From Prevotella sp. (GTDB lineage Bacteria > Bacteroidota > Bacteroidia > Bacteroidales > Bacteroidaceae): DNA of 64,000 nt. The notes beneath the pieces are model-generated. The model did no database searches, had not been told where the DNA came from, and saw nothing but the letters and a program-made list of their open reading frames with translations. Of the stretch, positions 1,763-9,911 are shown one piece after another. The position numbers and the translations under genes are program-made. Where the stretch lies: contig JAILHK010000013.1 in the NCBI GenBank assembly GCA_024695815.1, positions 1 through 64,000 on the forward strand, given 5' to 3'. Within the stretch, counting starts at the first letter, position 1. The number at the start of each line of letters is the position of its first letter.

Positions 1763-4108
1763 TTAAAATCCCACCCGATACTCCAATGTACTTTCTGTTG
1801 TCGTAAACAACGGCTCGCCCTCTTCGTAAGAACCGAACTCTTCAAGGTGTTTTACTCGCAGGTGTGCTATCAGTTCACGAATCTTTAGTTTACCTAGCGT
1901 TACCTCCTCATCAAACCGGAAGAAGAAATGAGGTCCTTTTACGTCAAATGGATACCAAGTGTCACCCATTCGTTTTTCCGTTACCTTGCTTGCTGTATCT
2001 TTAACATGAAAAACACGATACTCACCTGTTTGTTCTACGCCATCCGTATAAAGGACTACGAACTGGATATTTTTCTTCTCGTAAAAATATGATGTGTGAG
2101 CACCAGGACGTGGTGGTTCACCTTTAACTTCAAGACGTACATTATATACCAACGAACCCTTGTCATTATTGCCCAGAATCCATTGCAAATGTGCTTCATC
2201 CTTGTAGTATCCCACCAATATACCTTTACCGGCATATCGTTCCAGATAATGAAGCGTTAGCCATTGCGAATGTGGTACAGGTTGTTGTAGTTCCTGTTCA
2301 ATAGCGGGTTTAAGCACGTCCTGTGGATCTTGTCCCATACCGCATTTCTCTACTACAAAGTATCGTGACAACTCATCGAATTGCGCTTGTGTTTTTTCTG
2401 GTTCCTTCGCTGGACGAGCGTAAGCAAAATAAGTCATTCGTTCCTCACCATACGGTTGGAACACCCTGCCGTTCAACTCATAGAAGTGCTGCTGCAGATA
2501 CAATGCCCCGTCCACGCCCAAACGAGCACGCATAGCATATATCATAAACTCCTTTTGGATGACAGCCCTTATCTCTTCACGGAACTTCTTTCTTACATAT
2601 TCTTTCCATTGCGATTTCTCGTTGGCCTTGTTACGTGCATACAAGAATAGCACATACAGGAAGTTTACATCATATTGCGATAGAAACAGCGTATCTCTGT
2701 CAAACAAGCGGTCAGGGAACTGATACGAGATCTTTGTGCAATGTTCCTCGTTTTTATCCTTATGCGGTCGTATATTCTCCTGTACATTATATTTGAGGTC
2801 ATCATTGACAAAGGCGCTGATAAAGAAATTAGGAATCACATCATAGCCCTCTGTCATGGATGTATCCTGTAAGCGGATATTACCAAAACGTCCTCTATCT
2901 GCAAGTCTCTTTTGCTTGTCTAGTTCATCATACGCAGTATCTTCCGATAGGAATAGATTGATGTTCCATTGTATGACGTTCCTTGCATACGTGTACTGCT
3001 TATAGATAGATTCGGATGTCAGTGGATGTCCACTCTTATAGTATTTACTGTCACCTATATAATAGACTTCTCTGTTTGTTTGAGTCTCTGCAGATGTCAA
3101 TGCCATATCTGTGTACATGTGGTCCACTCGCTTGCCATCGTCTTGGTCTGCCAATCCTTTGGGAATATCCTGATGAGGTGTGCCTATCAGTTCGTCTATC
3201 ATTGCCTCAAATACAATATTGAAGCTCTTGGCCAACAGATACTCCTGTGCATTTGTGTTAATCGCTATTCGATACGAGTTTTCAAAGAAAGCATAGCACA
3301 AGTCCCATAGCTGGAGAGCCTTGTCTGAGAAGTACTTGTACTTTATCTGCATCAGCCTCGTCTTTCCCATCCCGTGCATGTATTGTGTGAACTGCTTGCC
3401 AGTAATCAGTTCGTACTGAATGTTGATAGGCGTATGGAAACCGTATGCTCCATTCAAATAGTTAAGGATGCTGTAGAAGATAACAAACAATTCCTCCTCG
3501 TAGTTGACAATACGTTTCTTGTTCACAGGATTCAGATACACCACATCCTTATCCTGCACAAAAGCCTGTGAATGTGAGATGGTTCGTGTCCAGTTGATTT
3601 TGTTGTTTCCCCTGTGCAAGTTCTTGATAGTGAAAAGCACGAAGTCGCGGTTCTCCTGGTTGAAGTTAATGAGCGACAGCACAATATCCAGATACGTTTT
3701 CGCCTGATGTTTGCGACCTTTACCCGCCTGTGGCAGATGCTTGTAAAGAATCGCCTTACTCTTGGGATTCGCTTTGTAGAACACATTCAATGCCCTATAT
3801 ATCCACACAGAGAACTCGTAGATAAACTTCCGATACTCCTTGCTTAACTTTTCCTGACCTTTCGGTTCCATCACCATTTCTGGCGTAACAGGTTCGCCAG
3901 ACTCTTGCTGCACACCCACCAATGTTTCCTGTTCCGTCAATAGCACCTTAGGCAGAATGAACACACAGTCGTGCAGGTGTGGGTTATAGAAATAGCCCAC
4001 ATACTGCACACTCACCCGCTTGTCAACATCTTGCAAGACGTAGATGTCCTTCAGGACTTTCTCCACTCGTGAGCTTTCGTACTGGTGTTCTTCAAACAGG
4101 ATATACAT
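1763..4108 (-). CDS. LlaJI-like restriction endonuclease subunit (McrC-like)
   Basis: This 781-aa protein is the last gene of the four-gene restriction operon. It resembles the LlaJI/McrC-type nuclease subunit that pairs with an McrB-like NTPase. A PD-(D/E)XK-type centre is visible around residues 330-355: an aspartate in KRVDHMYTDM, then YYIGDSKYYKSGH giving the D-x-K pair. The N-terminal third has the family's beta-rich opening (MYILFEEHQYESS, VGYFYNPHLHDCVFILPKVLL). The C-terminal 250 residues carry no motif I know. The start overlaps the preceding stop by one base (TAATG), so the two are translationally coupled. Expected role: DNA cleavage at unmodified sites driven by the NTPase. The family assignment is by motif and gene order; recognition site unknown. 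Confidence 0.75.
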   Translation of the reverse strand: MYILFEEHQYESSRVEKVLKDIYVLQDVDKRVSVQYVGYFYNPHLHDCVFILPKVLLTEQETLVGVQQESGEPVTPEMVMEPKGQEKLSKEYRKFIYEFSVWIYRALNVFYKANPKSKAILYKHLPQAGKGRKHQAKTYLDIVLSLINFNQENRDFVLFTIKNLHRGNNKINWTRTISHSQAFVQDKDVVYLNPVNKKRIVNYEEELFVIFYSILNYLNGAYGFHTPINIQYELITGKQFTQYMHGMGKTRLMQIKYKYFSDKALQLWDLCYAFFENSYRIAINTNAQEYLLAKSFNIVFEAMIDELIGTPHQDIPKGLADQDDGKRVDHMYTDMALTSAETQTNREVYYIGDSKYYKSGHPLTSESIYKQYTYARNVIQWNINLFLSEDTAYDELDKQKRLADRGRFGNIRLQDTSMTEGYDVIPNFFISAFVNDDLKYNVQENIRPHKDKNEEHCTKISYQFPDRLFDRDTLFLSQYDVNFLYVLFLYARNKANEKSQWKEYVRKKFREEIRAVIQKEFMIYAMRARLGVDGALYLQQHFYELNGRVFQPYGEERMTYFAYARPAKEPEKTQAQFDELSRYFVVEKCGMGQDPQDVLKPAIEQELQQPVPHSQWLTLHYLERYAGKGILVGYYKDEAHLQWILGNNDKGSLVYNVRLEVKGEPPRPGAHTSYFYEKKNIQFVVLYTDGVEQTGEYRVFHVKDTASKVTEKRMGDTWYPFDVKGPHFFFRFDEEVTLGKLKIRELIAHLRVKHLEEFGSYEEGEPLFTTTESTLEYRVGF

Positions 4109-6129
4109 TAGTTCTTTTCTTCTTCCTTTTTCTTCCAGTTCATCACCTTCTGCACGAAGTCAGTCACCATTTCGGGATTCACATCGTTGCTGTCTTCCTT
4201 GTAGAAGTCAGGGAAAGTCAAATCATGCACCCTCCCCTCTTTGTCTTTATACTGGAACAACGAGGCGTCATCAAAGCCATAGTCTTTGAACACGTCGTTC
4301 CAAAGATAGAACAGCACCTTGCTTACGAATGTATCTACGGAGATAAGGTCGTTTTCACTATTTGGCAACTCAGATCTTTCTGGCGTCTTCTTATCAGGCT
4401 TGCAGAAGAAGTAGCCTAACTGTTTGTCGGCACTCGATGTCATAGAGGCGATGATGTCGTTGACTTTATGGATGAAGTCCCACCAATCCACAGGTTTTTC
4501 CACTCCATCAGCATCCTTTATCCTCACATCTATTTTCCATTCCTTTCCCTCGTTCTTAATCTTCATGTATTTCCACTCCCAGCGACGCTTGAAAGCAGAG
4601 TCGATAGGGAACAGACTCTGGTCACTTGTGTTCATTGTGGCCCAGATGTAGAGGTTGGGAGGTAATAAAAGTATACGTCCTTCCTGAATATCCTTAGAAA
4701 GAGTTGCGCCATAATTACTTATATAATTCTTTACGGTTCCTTCAACATCTATATTCTTGGTTAGCTTATACTCTTTACTATGTTCAAATGCGTCTTTGAT
4801 CGCTTGATGTAAATCTGTATCTGCTTCGATTGGGTATGAAGAGAAACAATTATCCGCTCTGTCCAGCAATTGGAATAGATCACCAAATATCTGAGCACAG
4901 TTTCCTCGATTTATTTCCTCTATAACAAGGAATTGTGGCTGTGGATTATCTGGACAATCTGCCATCTTTTTCCAAGCATAAAGGTATGCTTTTGTAAATG
5001 CCTGCATCACAAATTTATAGGTTATCCGTTTCTCTTTGTAAGTTCCTTCATTTTGATTGAGGCTAATCCCGTTATTAATTACGACTGGAACAATTTGAAC
5101 ATTGGTTTCATCCACCACTGGTTTGTACGCACCAACAAAGGTGGAATAGTCACTATCTGGATGGAATGTTGTTCGAATAGAACAATATTTCCCGTTCTTA
5201 ATTATATCATCTATCTTATGAGACTTACCAGTACCAGGAGCGCCATAGTATATTTCTTGACAATTCTCTAGAGAAGGATTATCTTCTTTGAATCTAACAA
5301 AGGCTTTTGGCATATCTTGAGTTAAATCGATATCCAAATTCTGATAAGTGGTTAGCGCTTTACTATAAGCTTCAGGGTAATCAATGATTGAATTGAGAAC
5401 TGACTCTATGACGTTCTTTGTCTTCATATAGAAATGGTTATAAAAGAATTCGATATAATTTGGATTTATAGAAACTCTTCCGTTCCTTATTTTAAACAGT
5501 TGGCAATTTTTGTCAATTAATGTCCACATTCTACTATTTCCCATATAGTAGTTGACATGTTTAGACGGAGGAGGATTCGTGGACAATATCTCTACCGTAT
5601 CTTCCAACTCATTATAAGAATCACATGTCATTACATATGAAAATAGCTGTTCAGTAGAAATGCTCTCAATTCCACGTAGATGAAGAGCATATAAGACATC
5701 AAAAATATAGAAAACAGGCAGAATATGATGAGTATTTGAATTATCATTTCTGTCTATAATTGCACTCATTTTGATTTTTAACAATTGTTCCGTCTTAATG
5801 GTATTGTACTCATCAGAACCTATTGGATATTTCCGTAGTTCTCGAAAAACGGGAGTTACAGATTCTTGACTATACCGACTACCCGTTTTAGTGACGAGTC
5901 CAAATAGTTGGGCGGAAGATAGCATTCTATGGTTGCATCTGAATCCGTTGAAGTCGTGCCGCACAAAGTAATCTTCAATGTTCTCATTTTCTGGATGTGA
6001 AATACTTGCAAATATACACGCGGCCTTGAAGACATCGTCAAACGAAGTCTCTTGTTTGGCAAAAGTCCATATACTTTTAATAGTGAGGGACTCCTGTTTG
6101 CGTTTCAAAATGGTACTAATATCTGTCAT
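4108..6129 (-). CDS. McrB-like AAA+ NTPase of the LlaJI-like system
   Basis: This 673-aa protein is the motor subunit of a LlaJI/McrBC-like restriction complex. The N-terminal 290 residues are probably the DNA-binding or specificity part, with no recognised domain. The AAA+ module then shows Walker A GAPGTGKS (about residue 298), Walker B FLVIEEINRGN (about 400) and the McrB-type MNT element in ATMNTSDQSLFPID (about 500), followed by AFKRRWEWKY as the arginine-finger region. The gene overlaps the upstream cytosine methylase by four bases (ATGA) and the downstream nuclease by one. McrB relatives use GTP; whether this one prefers GTP or ATP cannot be told from sequence. Intact and of usual length. 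Confidence 0.85.
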   Translation of the reverse strand: MTDISTILKRKQESLTIKSIWTFAKQETSFDDVFKAACIFASISHPENENIEDYFVRHDFNGFRCNHRMLSSAQLFGLVTKTGSRYSQESVTPVFRELRKYPIGSDEYNTIKTEQLLKIKMSAIIDRNDNSNTHHILPVFYIFDVLYALHLRGIESISTEQLFSYVMTCDSYNELEDTVEILSTNPPPSKHVNYYMGNSRMWTLIDKNCQLFKIRNGRVSINPNYIEFFYNHFYMKTKNVIESVLNSIIDYPEAYSKALTTYQNLDIDLTQDMPKAFVRFKEDNPSLENCQEIYYGAPGTGKSHKIDDIIKNGKYCSIRTTFHPDSDYSTFVGAYKPVVDETNVQIVPVVINNGISLNQNEGTYKEKRITYKFVMQAFTKAYLYAWKKMADCPDNPQPQFLVIEEINRGNCAQIFGDLFQLLDRADNCFSSYPIEADTDLHQAIKDAFEHSKEYKLTKNIDVEGTVKNYISNYGATLSKDIQEGRILLLPPNLYIWATMNTSDQSLFPIDSAFKRRWEWKYMKIKNEGKEWKIDVRIKDADGVEKPVDWWDFIHKVNDIIASMTSSADKQLGYFFCKPDKKTPERSELPNSENDLISVDTFVSKVLFYLWNDVFKDYGFDDASLFQYKDKEGRVHDLTFPDFYKEDSNDVNPEMVTDFVQKVMNWKKKEEEKN

Positions 6130-7259
6130 CTACAATCAATATTCATTGGGGATTCAAATAAGTTCTTAACTAGCACTGCTAAGAAATAGGATAGTTTTGG
6201 CGGAACTGCATTTCCTATTTGTCTACATATAGAAGATTTAGAGCCAATGAACTCGAAAGAATCAGGGAAAGATTGTACCCTGGCGGCTTCTCTTGGTGTT
6301 AGAGTTCTGTCTTGCTCTGGATGAATAAATCGTCCACCAGCAGGAGTGTCAAAACGAGTAGTAATCGTCATTGTTGGCAGATTCCAATCTAATCTACCAT
6401 ATGCTCCACTATGTACAGAATGGATTTCTTCATCAAGTGAAGTCCAGTTTTGACCAGTTGACACTTTTTTCATGCGCCCAATTGCCATATTGTTATGTTT
6501 AGTTGCAACATGGTTTGTTATGATACCATCATTATTTCTTAGCACTCTTTGATAATGAGTTTTAGCAGGACTAAGTTTGGCCCTTCCCGTTTCTGAAGGT
6601 GCGGGAATGTCTGAAATGGCATCAAACAGGGACACAGGTTTGAAGAAATCGGGATATGATTGTTCAATAATCTCTTTATTATTATCAAATAGTTTATCTA
6701 TATCAAAATCATGATTGAGCATTCCTATTAATATTACTCGTTCACGTCTTTGAGGAATTCCAAAATCAACAGCCTTACAAACCTTATGATGTACATAGTA
6801 TTTGTCACCCTCAAAGTTCTCTGAATTACCAAAAGCACAGATTATCTCGTCAAATATCTCTCCCTTATCCTTTGATAGAATACCCTTTACGTTCTCAAAG
6901 ACAAAGATTTTTGGACGAACTATTCTTACCACGTTGACATAATGTCTGAAAAGATAATTTCTGGGATCATTCATGAACGCGTTCTTCTCCCTTATTCGTG
7001 CACCGGCCATAGAAAAACCTTGGCAAGGAGGACCGCCAATAATTATGTCTGCTTCATCTTTTTTAAAGTGGTTTTCGTCAACAATCTTACCTATGTCCTC
7101 AGCATACATAAGAGTTTTGGGATGATTATGGGAGTACGAAGAAGCGATTTCCTTGTCAAATTCAACAGCTTTGACAATTTCATAACCTGCTTTTTCAAAT
7201 CCAACAGAAAAGCCTCCACATCCGGCAAACAAATCTATTACCTTTAATTTATGCTCCAT
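6126..7259 (-). CDS. DNA C5-cytosine methyltransferase
   Basis: This 377-aa enzyme transfers a methyl group from SAM to cytosine C5 in DNA and protects host sites from the linked nuclease. All core motifs are present in order: motif I DLFAGCGGFSVGFEKAG, motif IV GGPPCQGFSMAG with the catalytic cysteine near residue 79, motif VI ENVKG, motif VIII QRRERVILIG, motif IX LTPREAARVQSFPDSF and motif X QIGNAVPPKL. The target-recognition region between VIII and IX is about 100 residues, typical of a single-specificity enzyme. It overlaps the adenine-type methylase upstream by 11 bases and the McrB-like gene downstream by 4, so all four genes form one operon. Confidence 0.95.
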   Translation of the reverse strand: MEHKLKVIDLFAGCGGFSVGFEKAGYEIVKAVEFDKEIASSYSHNHPKTLMYAEDIGKIVDENHFKKDEADIIIGGPPCQGFSMAGARIREKNAFMNDPRNYLFRHYVNVVRIVRPKIFVFENVKGILSKDKGEIFDEIICAFGNSENFEGDKYYVHHKVCKAVDFGIPQRRERVILIGMLNHDFDIDKLFDNNKEIIEQSYPDFFKPVSLFDAISDIPAPSETGRAKLSPAKTHYQRVLRNNDGIITNHVATKHNNMAIGRMKKVSTGQNWTSLDEEIHSVHSGAYGRLDWNLPTMTITTRFDTPAGGRFIHPEQDRTLTPREAARVQSFPDSFEFIGSKSSICRQIGNAVPPKLSYFLAVLVKNLFESPMNIDCR

Positions 7260-8901
7260 CGCTTATTCTGTATTTTTCGTTAAACCTCTTTATGTAGTTC
7301 AATTCTGGTGCAGACAATTTATACACCGATTTTAGTTCATTATCTATCTCGTCAATGATATCCTTACAAAGCTTATGCTTGTATTCGTAATCAACTTGTT
7401 TCGTACCTACGTATTCCTTGGTGGCCTCTAATCGGTTTTCAAGTTTTTCGAACAAGACTGACCATTTTTTTTGTTTTGGAATCCTATTAGGGATTTTTAT
7501 GAAGGATAGTTCTTTGTTTGTAATATGCCATCCATCGGACACAATTGTCCACATCAGAAAGAACAGACTTGAATTCAACAAGCAATAAACAAAGGGGAGT
7601 TTAGTTTTATCTATTTTATATTCCTTGTAACTGTTTGATTTCATATCCTTGGAAAAAACTTTCATCCAAAAACATGCACGCAGGTTTATAAAAAAACTTC
7701 CTTTATTGTTTCCTTTGTTCAAAGAAAGAATGTCTTCGCCTTTGTATGAAAGTATCTTTTTATATATTGCTGTTCCCGTAGAATCTCCTAGTTTAGGCCA
7801 GTATCTATTATCGAATAGATGAATTTTTTCTAGGGACAAGTTGCAGAAAAGAGTTTCCCGTTCTGACCTATACCAATGATTGTACTTTGAGGTGTAAATA
7901 CCTTCTATGGCTTTTGTTTTCTGAGCCATTAATATTGTAAGTTTCTGGTGAACTCCAGAAAAAAGACAATCTGGTCTATCGGCAAAATTGAGAAGTAGTT
8001 GTTTCCCTGTTTGCGAATGTACATATTCTCTAATTGCCCCCATTCTTGCAGTAGATATATACGAAAGCGGTACTACAAATGCCAAGACCCCATCAGGCTT
8101 AAGCATAGTAGCAACATTCTTCATCACATCTGCATAGACGTTCCCAAAATCATATACAATGGTTCCCTCATATTTCCCATATTCGATATAAGGCGGATTG
8201 CCAACGATAATGTCATAATTGGCAAAGACATGTCCCTTATAGTCAACCATATCAACATTATAAAAGCATTCCGAAATCACCTTAGCTATAGGGACTACAT
8301 CTAACTCTTCCTCGAAAGAATCTATGACCAAGAAGAACAGTCTGAGCTTTGTAATATCTGTTGATGTACTTTCTATATCATTACCAATAATCGTTCCAAT
8401 AACATTTAATAAAGGAATGTCATTACAGATTCCAGTTTTTATCAATTCAATCTTTTGAGCCAATGCACTTACTAAAAAAGCTCCCGCTCCACAAGTCGGG
8501 TCAAAAACAGACGACTGCAAAACAACACGAACAGACTCGTTACTTAACCCTTTTAATTGTTGTTGTATAAGTGAAGAAGACGAGACAGTAACCAAAGAAG
8601 GATTTATGTGGTGATAGAATGAATTTAACACCATAAAATCAGTCACATCACTATCGGTATAGAAGACTCCTGCACTTTTCCTTCTTGATTCTTTTTCATT
8701 TACCCTAGCAAGGGCATCTTGAAGAACAACTTTTTTTAATTGCGTATCTGGTACTTGGAAATTGTATTTCTCATAGGTGCCCTTCAACAAAAGCTTAAGT
8801 GCTGAAAAGATTTTGATAGAATATGAATTATTGCCTCCATATCTATGTGATATGTGACTAACAACGATTTCTTGTATGTTATCGAAAATGGTGCTTGCCA
8901 T
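7249..8901 (-). CDS. N6-adenine-type DNA methyltransferase (NPPY)
   Basis: This 550-aa amino-methyltransferase is the first gene of the operon. The motif X region (RRKSAGVFYTDSDVTDFMV) is followed by motif I VFDPTCGAGAFLV (about residue 138) and motif IV VGNPPYIEYGKY (about 235), the gamma-type order seen in Eco57I/TaqI-like enzymes; NPPY points to N6-adenine. The C-terminal half is the likely target-recognition domain. In the characterised LlaJI system both methylases are C5-cytosine enzymes, so this mixed pair is unusual. Two methylases suggest an asymmetric recognition sequence, one enzyme per strand (inference). The start (MASTIF) is preceded by an A-rich stretch and lies inside an 8-bp hairpin. 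Confidence 0.88.
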   Translation of the reverse strand: MASTIFDNIQEIVVSHISHRYGGNNSYSIKIFSALKLLLKGTYEKYNFQVPDTQLKKVVLQDALARVNEKESRRKSAGVFYTDSDVTDFMVLNSFYHHINPSLVTVSSSSLIQQQLKGLSNESVRVVLQSSVFDPTCGAGAFLVSALAQKIELIKTGICNDIPLLNVIGTIIGNDIESTSTDITKLRLFFLVIDSFEEELDVVPIAKVISECFYNVDMVDYKGHVFANYDIIVGNPPYIEYGKYEGTIVYDFGNVYADVMKNVATMLKPDGVLAFVVPLSYISTARMGAIREYVHSQTGKQLLLNFADRPDCLFSGVHQKLTILMAQKTKAIEGIYTSKYNHWYRSERETLFCNLSLEKIHLFDNRYWPKLGDSTGTAIYKKILSYKGEDILSLNKGNNKGSFFINLRACFWMKVFSKDMKSNSYKEYKIDKTKLPFVYCLLNSSLFFLMWTIVSDGWHITNKELSFIKIPNRIPKQKKWSVLFEKLENRLEATKEYVGTKQVDYEYKHKLCKDIIDEIDNELKSVYKLSAPELNYIKRFNEKYRISDGA

Positions 8902-8925
8902 TTCTTATTTCTCTCGCCAAGCACC
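8890..8925 (-). promoter_or_regulatory. Hairpin enclosing the methylase start codon
   Basis: On the minus strand GGTGCTTG and CAAGCACC form a perfect 8-bp stem. The 3' arm is codons 2-5 of the adenine-type methylase, and the A-rich ribosome-entry region plus ATG lie in the loop. Such a structure could tune translation of the whole operon, or be a protein-binding site; neither is shown. Confidence 0.5.
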
Positions 8926-8962
8926 TAAACGAGTCTGTTTATATTATCATTCACCTACATAC

Positions 8963-9294
8963 AAAAAAACGTGGGTGCTTAACTCATGCCTGTTTGTTGT
9001 TCACGGCCTTCCACAGCCTTGGTAATTAAACAGACAGAGAAACACCCACGCAGGAGTATATAGTACACCCGTAAAGTGTGCTTGAGGGCACAAAGCACCC
9101 TCTCAGCACACTACGGAGTAGTATATGATACACCCCGTGGTGTCACCCTAGCATTTGTTTTTGAATTACCGTTCGATTGTGGAAGTTTTGAACAACCAAA
9201 AACAAAGCGTCAGTAACGCCTTTCAATATGTAGTGCTCCACCCTGTGGCTCCATCCTCCTCAAAGGACATCCTTGCCGCAATAAGCAGATAGCA
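8963..9294 (-). ncRNA. Structured non-coding RNA candidate, about 330 nt
   Basis: The minus strand shows a promoter-like TATCTTTG box (9299-9306) and, about 330 nt later, a terminator-like end: CGTGGGTG pairs with CACCCACG (9043-9050 with 8970-8977) followed by seven Ts (8963-8969). Inside the last stem a second helix, GUCUGUUU with AAACAGGC, pairs with one G-U. Upstream are a strong hairpin (9069-9116; CCGTAGTGTGCT against AGCACACTTTACGG with small mismatches), a 10-bp stem TTTGTTTTTG/CAAAAACAAA (9154-9163 with 9197-9206), and several short hairpins such as GCGTTACTGACGC. There is no convincing ORF. I do not recognise tmRNA, RNase P RNA, 6S or SRP features. It could be a free RNA or an attenuating leader of the restriction operon. 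Confidence 0.6.
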
Positions 9295-9298
9295 TCTG

Positions 9299-9333
9299 CA
9301 AAGATACAACTTATTTCTGATATAAGCATCAAA
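9299..9333 (-). promoter_or_regulatory. Promoter of the ncRNA / restriction operon
   Basis: Minus-strand TTTG (9330-9333), 23 nt, TATCTTTG (9299-9306). A 15-bp palindrome GCAGAT-N3-ATCTGC (9285-9299) straddles the expected start of transcription and could be an operator. Confidence 0.6.
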
Positions 9334-9522
9334 GTGATTCGAATTTACACTTTATTTAAAGGAAAAGGGATTTTCATCAAACTTATACCCCAAAAAGTAA
9401 ACAAACAAACTATCGGTACTCACGTATTCATTTTTTAAGGCATCAAGGTGTAACTATTTGCTTATTTCATACTAAATCAGAAATGAAATGGTGCATAGTA
9501 ATGCCACTATTTGCTTGCTTTT
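9334..9522. other. AT-rich intergenic stretch without recognised content
   Basis: No ORF, promoter box or clear hairpin was found here. Two copies of ACTATTTGCTT (9453 and 9506) are the only repetition noted. It separates the RNA/restriction promoter from the repeat arrays. Confidence 0.5.
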
Positions 9523-9603
9523 ACGATGCCGTAGTGACACTCTTACGATGCAATAGTGACACTTTTACAATGCAATAGTGACACTCTTAAGATGCAATAG
9601 TTT
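9523..9603. repeat. 22-bp tandem array A (3.7 copies)
   Basis: Units built on ATGCAATAGTGACACTCTT begin at 9523, 9545, 9567 and 9589, exactly 22 bp apart, with 1-3 differences between copies. The core GTGACAC is near-palindromic. There is no spacer sequence between units. Confidence 0.95.
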
Positions 9604-9619
9604 AGGTTTTGATCTGATT

Positions 9620-9722
9620 CTAGGGGCTAGATTGGGCGAATCTAGCCCCTGGATGTGGTGGTTCTAGCCCCTAGAAGTGGCATTCCTAGGGGCTAGAAGT
9701 GGATGTTCTAGGGGCTAGAACC
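9620..9722. repeat. 22-bp tandem array B with inverted cores (5 copies)
   Basis: Cores begin at 9620, 9642, 9664, 9686 and 9708, exactly 22 bp apart. Units 1, 4 and 5 carry CTAGGGGCTAG, while units 2 and 3 carry its reverse complement (CTAGCCCCTAG, the first of these with a changed last base). The orientation flips without disturbing the spacing. Confidence 0.95.
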
Positions 9723-9740
9723 AAAACAATGGGGCGCAGT

Positions 9741-9911
9741 TTAGACTTTAGAATGGGCACTTCTAGACTTTAGAATGGGCACTTCTAGACTTTAGAATGG
9801 GCACTTCTAGACTTTAGAATGGGCTGTTCTAGACTCTAGAATGGGCTGTTCTAGACTTTAGAATGGGCCGTTCTAGACTCTAGAATTGCTCTGTCTAGAC
9901 TTTAGAATGAC
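9741..9911. repeat. 22-bp tandem array C (8 copies)
   Basis: Units of the form TCTAGACTTTAGAATGGG begin every 22 bp, with AGAC at 9743, 9765, 9787, 9809, 9831, 9853, 9875 and 9897. Each contains TCTAGA or a close variant twice. The four-base tail varies (CACT, CTGT, CCGT). The array is followed by a decaying copy. Confidence 0.95.

Follow-up and report, generated by a model that had tools for sequence, protein, structure and literature searches.

In Bacteroides capsule operons, the 5′ leader between the promoter and the first gene is a site of premature termination that is overcome by a NusG paralogue, with UpxY proteins preventing termination in the leader upstream of upxY (PMC7819879, PMC7315117). 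LoaP acts on the difficidin and macrolactin operons (dfn/mln) via a leader hairpin plus an intrinsic terminator (PMC12691694). The control of restriction–modification (R-M) systems is known mainly from controller (C) proteins and a few antisense RNAs (review PMC3874152). The leader RNA described here, from a 64,000-nt stretch of Prevotella sp. DNA (hereafter, the window), shares features with each of these. Like the UpxY-controlled leaders, it lies between a promoter and a first gene and has divergent homologues directly before upxY-family genes, whereas it mainly targets R-M operons that have no upxY beside them, and most of the UpxY loci examined lack it. Like the LoaP leaders, it joins a hairpin to an intrinsic terminator as a candidate regulatory unit; the LoaP hairpin, however, is a small stem-loop of UNCG type that precedes the terminator, whereas here a domain of about 330 nt is followed by an extra hairpin downstream of the U-run. 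As with C proteins and antisense RNAs, it would be a device dedicated to controlling how restriction and modification genes are expressed, but in the form of a structured sense leader common to R-M types. Finally, the operon behind it has the gene order of LlaJI-type R-M operons (methyltransferases (MTases), McrB-like GTPase and partner), although the leader is not specific to that R-M type.

The RNA runs on the minus strand from 9294 to about 8955. Its features, with the elements on either side, are as follows:

9299–9306, minus strand: promoter −7 box TATCTTTG (Bacteroidota TAnnTTTG), at the same position in 40/41 homologues
8955–9294, minus strand: conserved structured leader RNA, whole unit including the closing helix (z −7.1; 41-sequence alignment A1; covariation)
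9247–9277, minus strand: 5′ hairpin with a kink-turn-like signature (GGC/GCC stem, 3-nt bulge, two GA steps, covarying stem)
9196–9236, minus strand: near-invariant core GCACTACATATTGAAAGGCGTTACTGACGCTTTGTTTTTGG, most columns invariant in 41 sequences
9226–9233, minus strand: closing helix 5′ strand CUACAUAU, pairing with 8962–8955
9069–9116, minus strand: central hairpin CCGUAGUGUGC...GCACACUUUACGG (A1 helices 9 and 10, with 100% and 97.6% of cells paired)
8970–9050, minus strand: terminator-like stem CGUGGGUGUUU...AAGCACCCACG (helix 11, 21 pairs, 99% of cells paired)
8963–8969, minus strand: U-run of seven U read from the sequence, with homologues carrying a T-run at the equivalent position
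8955–8962, minus strand: closing helix 3′ strand GUAUGUAG, after the U-run (TGTAG conserved in class A)
8913–8933, minus strand: hairpin H2 (CUCG...CGAG), with loop GGUGCUUG at 8925–8918 complementing the terminator 3′ arm
8890–8901, minus strand: start-codon region AUGGCAAGCACC, with 8-nt complementarity to the H2 loop

A BLASTN search with 8900–9340 identified a second copy in the same genome at 76% identity and matches in 144 of 299 genus genomes, of which about 50 matched along most of the query. Forty close homologues with their flanks (class A), together with the window, gave 41 loci from 37 genomes. The consensus for the 41-sequence alignment A1 contains 86 conserved pairs with 98.4% of cells paired, and slid versions of the same consensus dropped to 41–51%. 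Twenty of the 86 pairs showed two-sided changes, in 111 cells compared to 30 in shuffled alignments, a level reached in 0 of 500 shuffles. The leader is thus a structured RNA under selection, with compensatory changes beyond chance. Folding gave −136 kcal/mol for the minus strand of 8950–9300 (z −7.1, with 0 of 100 shuffles as good); the plus strand of the region, which an initial annotation of this DNA had suggested folding too as a check, also beat its shuffles but more weakly (z −5.6). No open reading frame of at least 60 amino acids was found between 8902 and 10052. At gathering score, a search of the whole window with Rfam release 15 yielded no family match at the leader RNA, including the tmRNA, RNase P, 6S, SRP and riboswitch families; at E ≤ 10 the RNA region returned chance microRNA, lncRNA and viral matches only, all far under the gathering score, and the homologous loci returned nothing at the RNA position.

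These results bear out what the initial annotation had described from the letters of the window: a minus-strand promoter-like box (TATCTTTG at 9306–9299), stable stems and hairpins, which lie where it had placed them, an end of seven Ts (8969–8963, following the stem at 9050–8970) and the absence of an ORF. Its designation of the element as an unassigned structured RNA is now backed by homologues, covariation and the empty Rfam result; it had named a lack of covariation and a housekeeping Rfam match as findings that would count against it, and neither was encountered. The extent that it gave, 8963–9294, needs revision at one end. The RNA does not finish at the U-run, as the closing helix reaches to about 8955 and the hairpin at 8933–8913 is conserved further beyond.

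The TAnnTTTG box occurs at one fixed distance in 40/41 homologues, compared to 2.2% of 57-nt background stretches, and would place the 5′ start of the RNA at about 9294–9292. Within the 5′ hairpin, the GA steps are at least 90% conserved in A1 and helix 3 has changed on both sides at all 4 of its pairs; the conserved GA steps suggest a kink-turn. The core GCACTACATATTGAAAGGCGTTACTGACGCTTTGTTTTTGG is still recognisable in the divergent classes. Folded alone, 9052–8963 of the minus strand gave a z of −5.6, and this predicted stable stem is directly followed by the U-run, before the first gene, which is the arrangement of an intrinsic terminator or attenuator.

Conserved structure continues past the U-run. 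The closing helix brings sequence from within the core to the nucleotides immediately after it, scoring 6.75 with its own partner compared to 6.23 with permuted partners (maximum 6.42 of 200). It is almost invariant in class A and is compensated in divergent homologues such as L079 (with GACGACAUAU/GUAUGUCGUC), L157 and L161, as well as in L135 and L156. Further downstream, the stem of H2 covaries and its loop reads GGGUGYUU or GGGUAUC, with the complement, AAGCACCC or GAUACCC, present in the 3′ arm of the terminator stem. This complementarity covers at least 7 of 8 pairs in 86/96 loci, with a mean of 7.26 for a loop and its own arm, 6.74 for permuted arms (maximum 6.92 of 300) and 5.44 for shuffled sequence. 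Loop and arm have also changed together independently, as GAGUGCUU/AAGCACUC in L054, GGAUGCUU/AAGCAUCC in L042 and L060, GGGCUUGU/GCAAGCCC in L158, and again in L151. In the window, the same loop GGUGCUUG complements CAAGCACC just 3′ of the AUG (score 8, 0 of 100 shuffles), and the minimum free energy structure of 8950–8880 pairs the H2 loop with the start-codon region. Across loci, 19% reach p ≤ 0.05 for this pairing where 5% are expected, with several such loci being related to one another, so that pairing of the loop with the start codon in short leaders is suggestive only.

The operon behind the leader is on the same strand and consists of four genes:

7249–8901, minus strand: first operon gene, Eco57I-type N6 DNA methyltransferase (Pfam Eco57I, 1.9e-9; PADLOC)
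6126–7259, minus strand: C5-cytosine DNA methyltransferase (Pfam DNA_methylase, 1.5e-74)
4108–6129, minus strand: McrB-like GTPase restriction subunit (PDB GTPase subunits of restriction endonucleases, 3e-11; PADLOC REase_II)
1763–4108, minus strand: partner restriction subunit, LlaJI-like, without a Pfam match (homologous last gene in 8 RNA-bearing loci)

By its predicted gene content of MTases, McrB-like GTPase and partner, this is a LlaJI-like R-M operon, with the partner recognised solely by homology to the same gene of other RNA-bearing loci. On the far side of the leader, window positions 9518–9909 hold neighbouring tandem arrays, all of 22-bp period with differing units (TTACGATGCAATAGTGACACTC; CTAGCCCCTAGAAGTGGCAGTC; TAGACTTTAGAATGGGCACTTC), and similar words (AGGGGCTAGATT, ACTATTGCATCG) precede this genome's second RNA copy (L033).

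Across class A, the next same-strand operon has R-M genes in 39/40 loci with readable downstream sequence; L047 lacks an R-M operon, and the contig ends at L045. The enzymes are diverse, comprising LlaJI-like, BpuJI, HaeIII, TdeIII, HNH, MutH-like and type IIG systems, often with Vsr alongside. The LlaJI-like operons carry a C5 MTase, an McrB-like GTPase and a DUF2357/PDDEXK partner. In a pattern set from GTDB genomes that partly overlaps class A, an R-M gene was found by BLAST to the first set in 54/61 loci. The genes upstream of class A leaders have no family in common, and nearly all loci have no TAnnTTTG box between the RNA and the gene. The leader therefore has the position of a cis-regulatory element as read from the DNA, on the same strand between a promoter and the first gene of unrelated operons.

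The initial annotation was right that an R-M operon follows the RNA and had suggested checking whether the RNA travels with LlaJI-like operons; the association is not limited to them, as many other R-M types carry the leader too. Mapped on the RNA tree, which recombination within the RNA could itself have scrambled, R-M type changes 23 times compared to a shuffled mean of 23.9. We therefore rejected co-inheritance of the RNA with one R-M type, and the lack of tracking indicates that leader and enzyme have been freely recombined. In the converse test, the leader was present at 5 of about 20 TdeIII loci in the genus, so it is an optional, exchangeable part. Together, the unrelated enzymes and the independence of type from the RNA tree indicate that the leader is generic and does not belong to any single enzyme. 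In this it resembles C proteins, which also control unrelated enzymes.

In many loci, a further segment lies between the RNA and a C5 MTase gene. One such segment, structured and about 195 nt long (RNA fold z −3.7), ends in a terminator-like stem overlapping the MTase start codon and is found in L035, L040–L042, L051, L053, L056 and others (for example, G050:C29:5821-6014); it occurs in 17/150 genus genomes, usually behind the first RNA and sometimes without it. A different conserved segment, CATTTCACTTCTG...ACTGG...CGCAGGGGCTTTTT with a terminator-like end, precedes another MTase group in L057, L062, L067, L070, L071 and others.

The family extends well beyond class A. An exact-core scan of GTDB genomes found 83 loci, all in Prevotella, Alloprevotella, Prevotellaceae, Bacteroidaceae or Bacteroidales records, most of them rumen metagenome-assembled genomes, along with some cultured strains, among them Prevotella communis E15-14. 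Prevotella sp. ne3005 and tc2-28 are further cultured carriers. A covariance model of the 3′ half of the RNA (R1, 187 positions) matched 74/119 genus genomes, 172/301 family genomes in 22/30 genera and 18/247 order genomes, with rough E-values and weak matches that are provisional, those checked by nhmmer sharing the same architecture. Searches of phage and plasmid records by blastn found no leader RNA, and the exact core was absent from viral contigs; there is thus no sign of a phage-borne element. One homologue (L174, G010:C3:728781; 74 bits by nhmmer) has a convergent rRNA operon nearby and is not closely followed by any long ORF.

Divergent copies precede other defence genes and also genes for surface or secreted proteins. 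Class B is found before type IIG, type III and MTase–DUF7226–DndB–helicase operons and before TPR/Schlafen-helicase genes. In three loci (L079, L083 and L089) the operon encodes a D12 MTase, DUF7226, a DndB-domain protein, a helicase and another MTase, apparently an uncharacterised defence system based on DNA modification. Class C precedes GDSL lipases, a glycosyltransferase, radical-SAM and unknown genes, and more distant copies precede AbiH (L123, in the window's own genome), a polysaccharide-export operon, MACPF and a C10 peptidase. Four copies (L122 at G000:C35:2452-2643, L074, L154 and L173) stand before a conserved protein of 134–173 amino acids with a signal-peptide-like start; its L074 version matches nothing in Pfam or NCBIfam.

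Some divergent homologues lie directly before UpxY-family antiterminator genes. Three were found from the RNA side (L165, L171 and L175) and five more in a search started from UpxY genes (L204, L213, L215, L222 and L224), and R1 matches lie 150–180 nt 5′ of UpxY-type genes at G050:C60 and G221:C6. Genome G015 is one in which leader and upxY adjoin. Given the role of UpxY and LoaP in termination, this placement points to a read-through function for the leader. UpxY genes over the family cut-off occur in 16/20 RNA-bearing genomes and in 15/23 genus genomes picked regardless of RNA, with no clear enrichment. None was detected in the window genome, G000, but the housekeeping nusG was missed there too; the assembly is therefore incomplete and the absence uninformative.

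The anatomy of the leader, with a terminator-like stem and U-run, a closing helix past the U-run and H2, suggests a read-through switch. We consider it likely, from the sequence comparisons, that the RNA is a cis-acting attenuation or antitermination leader made from the operon's own promoter. By default, RNA polymerase would stop at the U-run and little mRNA would be made; in transcripts that leak through short leaders like that of the window, the H2 loop may pair with the start-codon region of the first gene and limit its translation. When the switch is ON, passage of polymerase through the U-run would be enabled by the leader domain or by a bound factor, after which the closing helix would form and the terminator 3′ arm could pair with the H2 loop, freeing the start codon. 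The leader would thereby gate restriction and modification genes together, with a specialised NusG paralogue (UpxY/LoaP type) or a ligand as the leading candidates for the trigger. Of the options in the initial annotation, an attenuator of restriction gene expression fits best, given the same-strand operon, the lack of an intervening promoter box and the structure past the U-run. Some findings sit less easily with attenuation. H2 lies downstream of the U-run and so cannot be a classical antiterminator formed before termination, its pairing with the start codon is confined to a subset of short leaders, several of which are relatives of one another, a second structured segment bearing a terminator-like end of its own precedes the gene in many loci, and class C copies precede genes without a defence role.

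A specific version of attenuation, which we regard as tentative, has the leader recruit a specialised NusG paralogue (UpxY/LoaP/RfaH type), which would cause read-through, with R-M operons as extra targets of the capsule antitermination machinery. The leaders directly before UpxY genes, the two R1 matches a short distance before such genes and the hairpin-plus-terminator mode of LoaP (PMC12691694) agree with it, but the majority of the UpxY loci examined have no such leader, and no clear excess of UpxY is seen where the RNA is present. Another possibility, on the doubtful side, is a family-wide Bacteroidaceae RNA sensor switch that co-regulates anti-phage systems (R-M, DndB-type, AbiH and Schlafen-helicase) with capsule and surface genes, the conserved core sensing an infection- or growth-related signal directly; if so, a defence regulon would be wired by a cis RNA instead of a protein. 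A ligand-sensing riboswitch, in which the core binds a small molecule or ion reporting infection or stress and the terminator and H2 form the expression platform, would suit the size of the RNA, its kink-turn-like hairpin, the invariant core with covarying flanks and a regulon mixing defence and surface genes. We think it unlikely, as there is no hint of a ligand, the downstream genes share no metabolite pathway and no Rfam riboswitch matches.

Its own promoter, its terminator-like end and its several copies per genome would allow the RNA to be a trans-acting small RNA, about 330 nt long when terminated at the U-run, that regulates mRNAs and possibly the adjacent operon through the H2 loop. 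A product of this length would also suit the free RNA that the initial annotation had offered as one option. A trans-acting role is quite improbable, since the closing helix and H2 need transcription past the U-run and the RNA keeps a near-fixed position before operons with no promoter box in the gap. Randomised R-M types on the RNA tree and unrelated upstream genes would also be expected of a DNA-level module, a recombination or integration site for exchange of R-M cassettes whose RNA-like look is secondary. However, compensatory changes that include G–U steps and the fixed promoter position indicate selection on a transcribed RNA, and no recombinase was noticed beside the loci, making such a site very unlikely. 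The RNA is adjacent to the restriction enzyme genes and on their strand, as a component or guide of the enzyme might be, and the initial annotation had raised an RNA component of the locus. With at least seven R-M kinds behind the leader, type not following the RNA tree and TdeIII loci both with and without it, we rejected the RNA as part of the LlaJI enzyme and consider an enzyme RNA of any kind extremely unlikely.

An attenuation leader thus remains our preferred reading. A leader RNA with attenuation is a known kind of element. So far as the literature searched shows, novelty seems to lie in the RNA family itself, its architecture past the U-run and the way a single leader serves many unrelated R-M systems. 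Literature searches, covering mainly freely available papers, found no such leader described, the UpxY leader literature searched contained no published structured RNA of this form, and the words leader, attenuation, riboswitch, noncoding RNA and small RNA are all absent from a 2025 review of R-M biology.

One leader before at least seven unrelated R-M kinds and several other defence systems implies wiring that is independent of the enzymes. Probably, the leader is a common switch that turns R-M systems on. It would then offer a single handle on the conditions under which restriction becomes active in Prevotella and its relatives, which matters for how these hard-to-transform bacteria of the rumen and gut resist phages and receive DNA. 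It would also provide a sequence signature by which defence and surface operons that share this control could be found.
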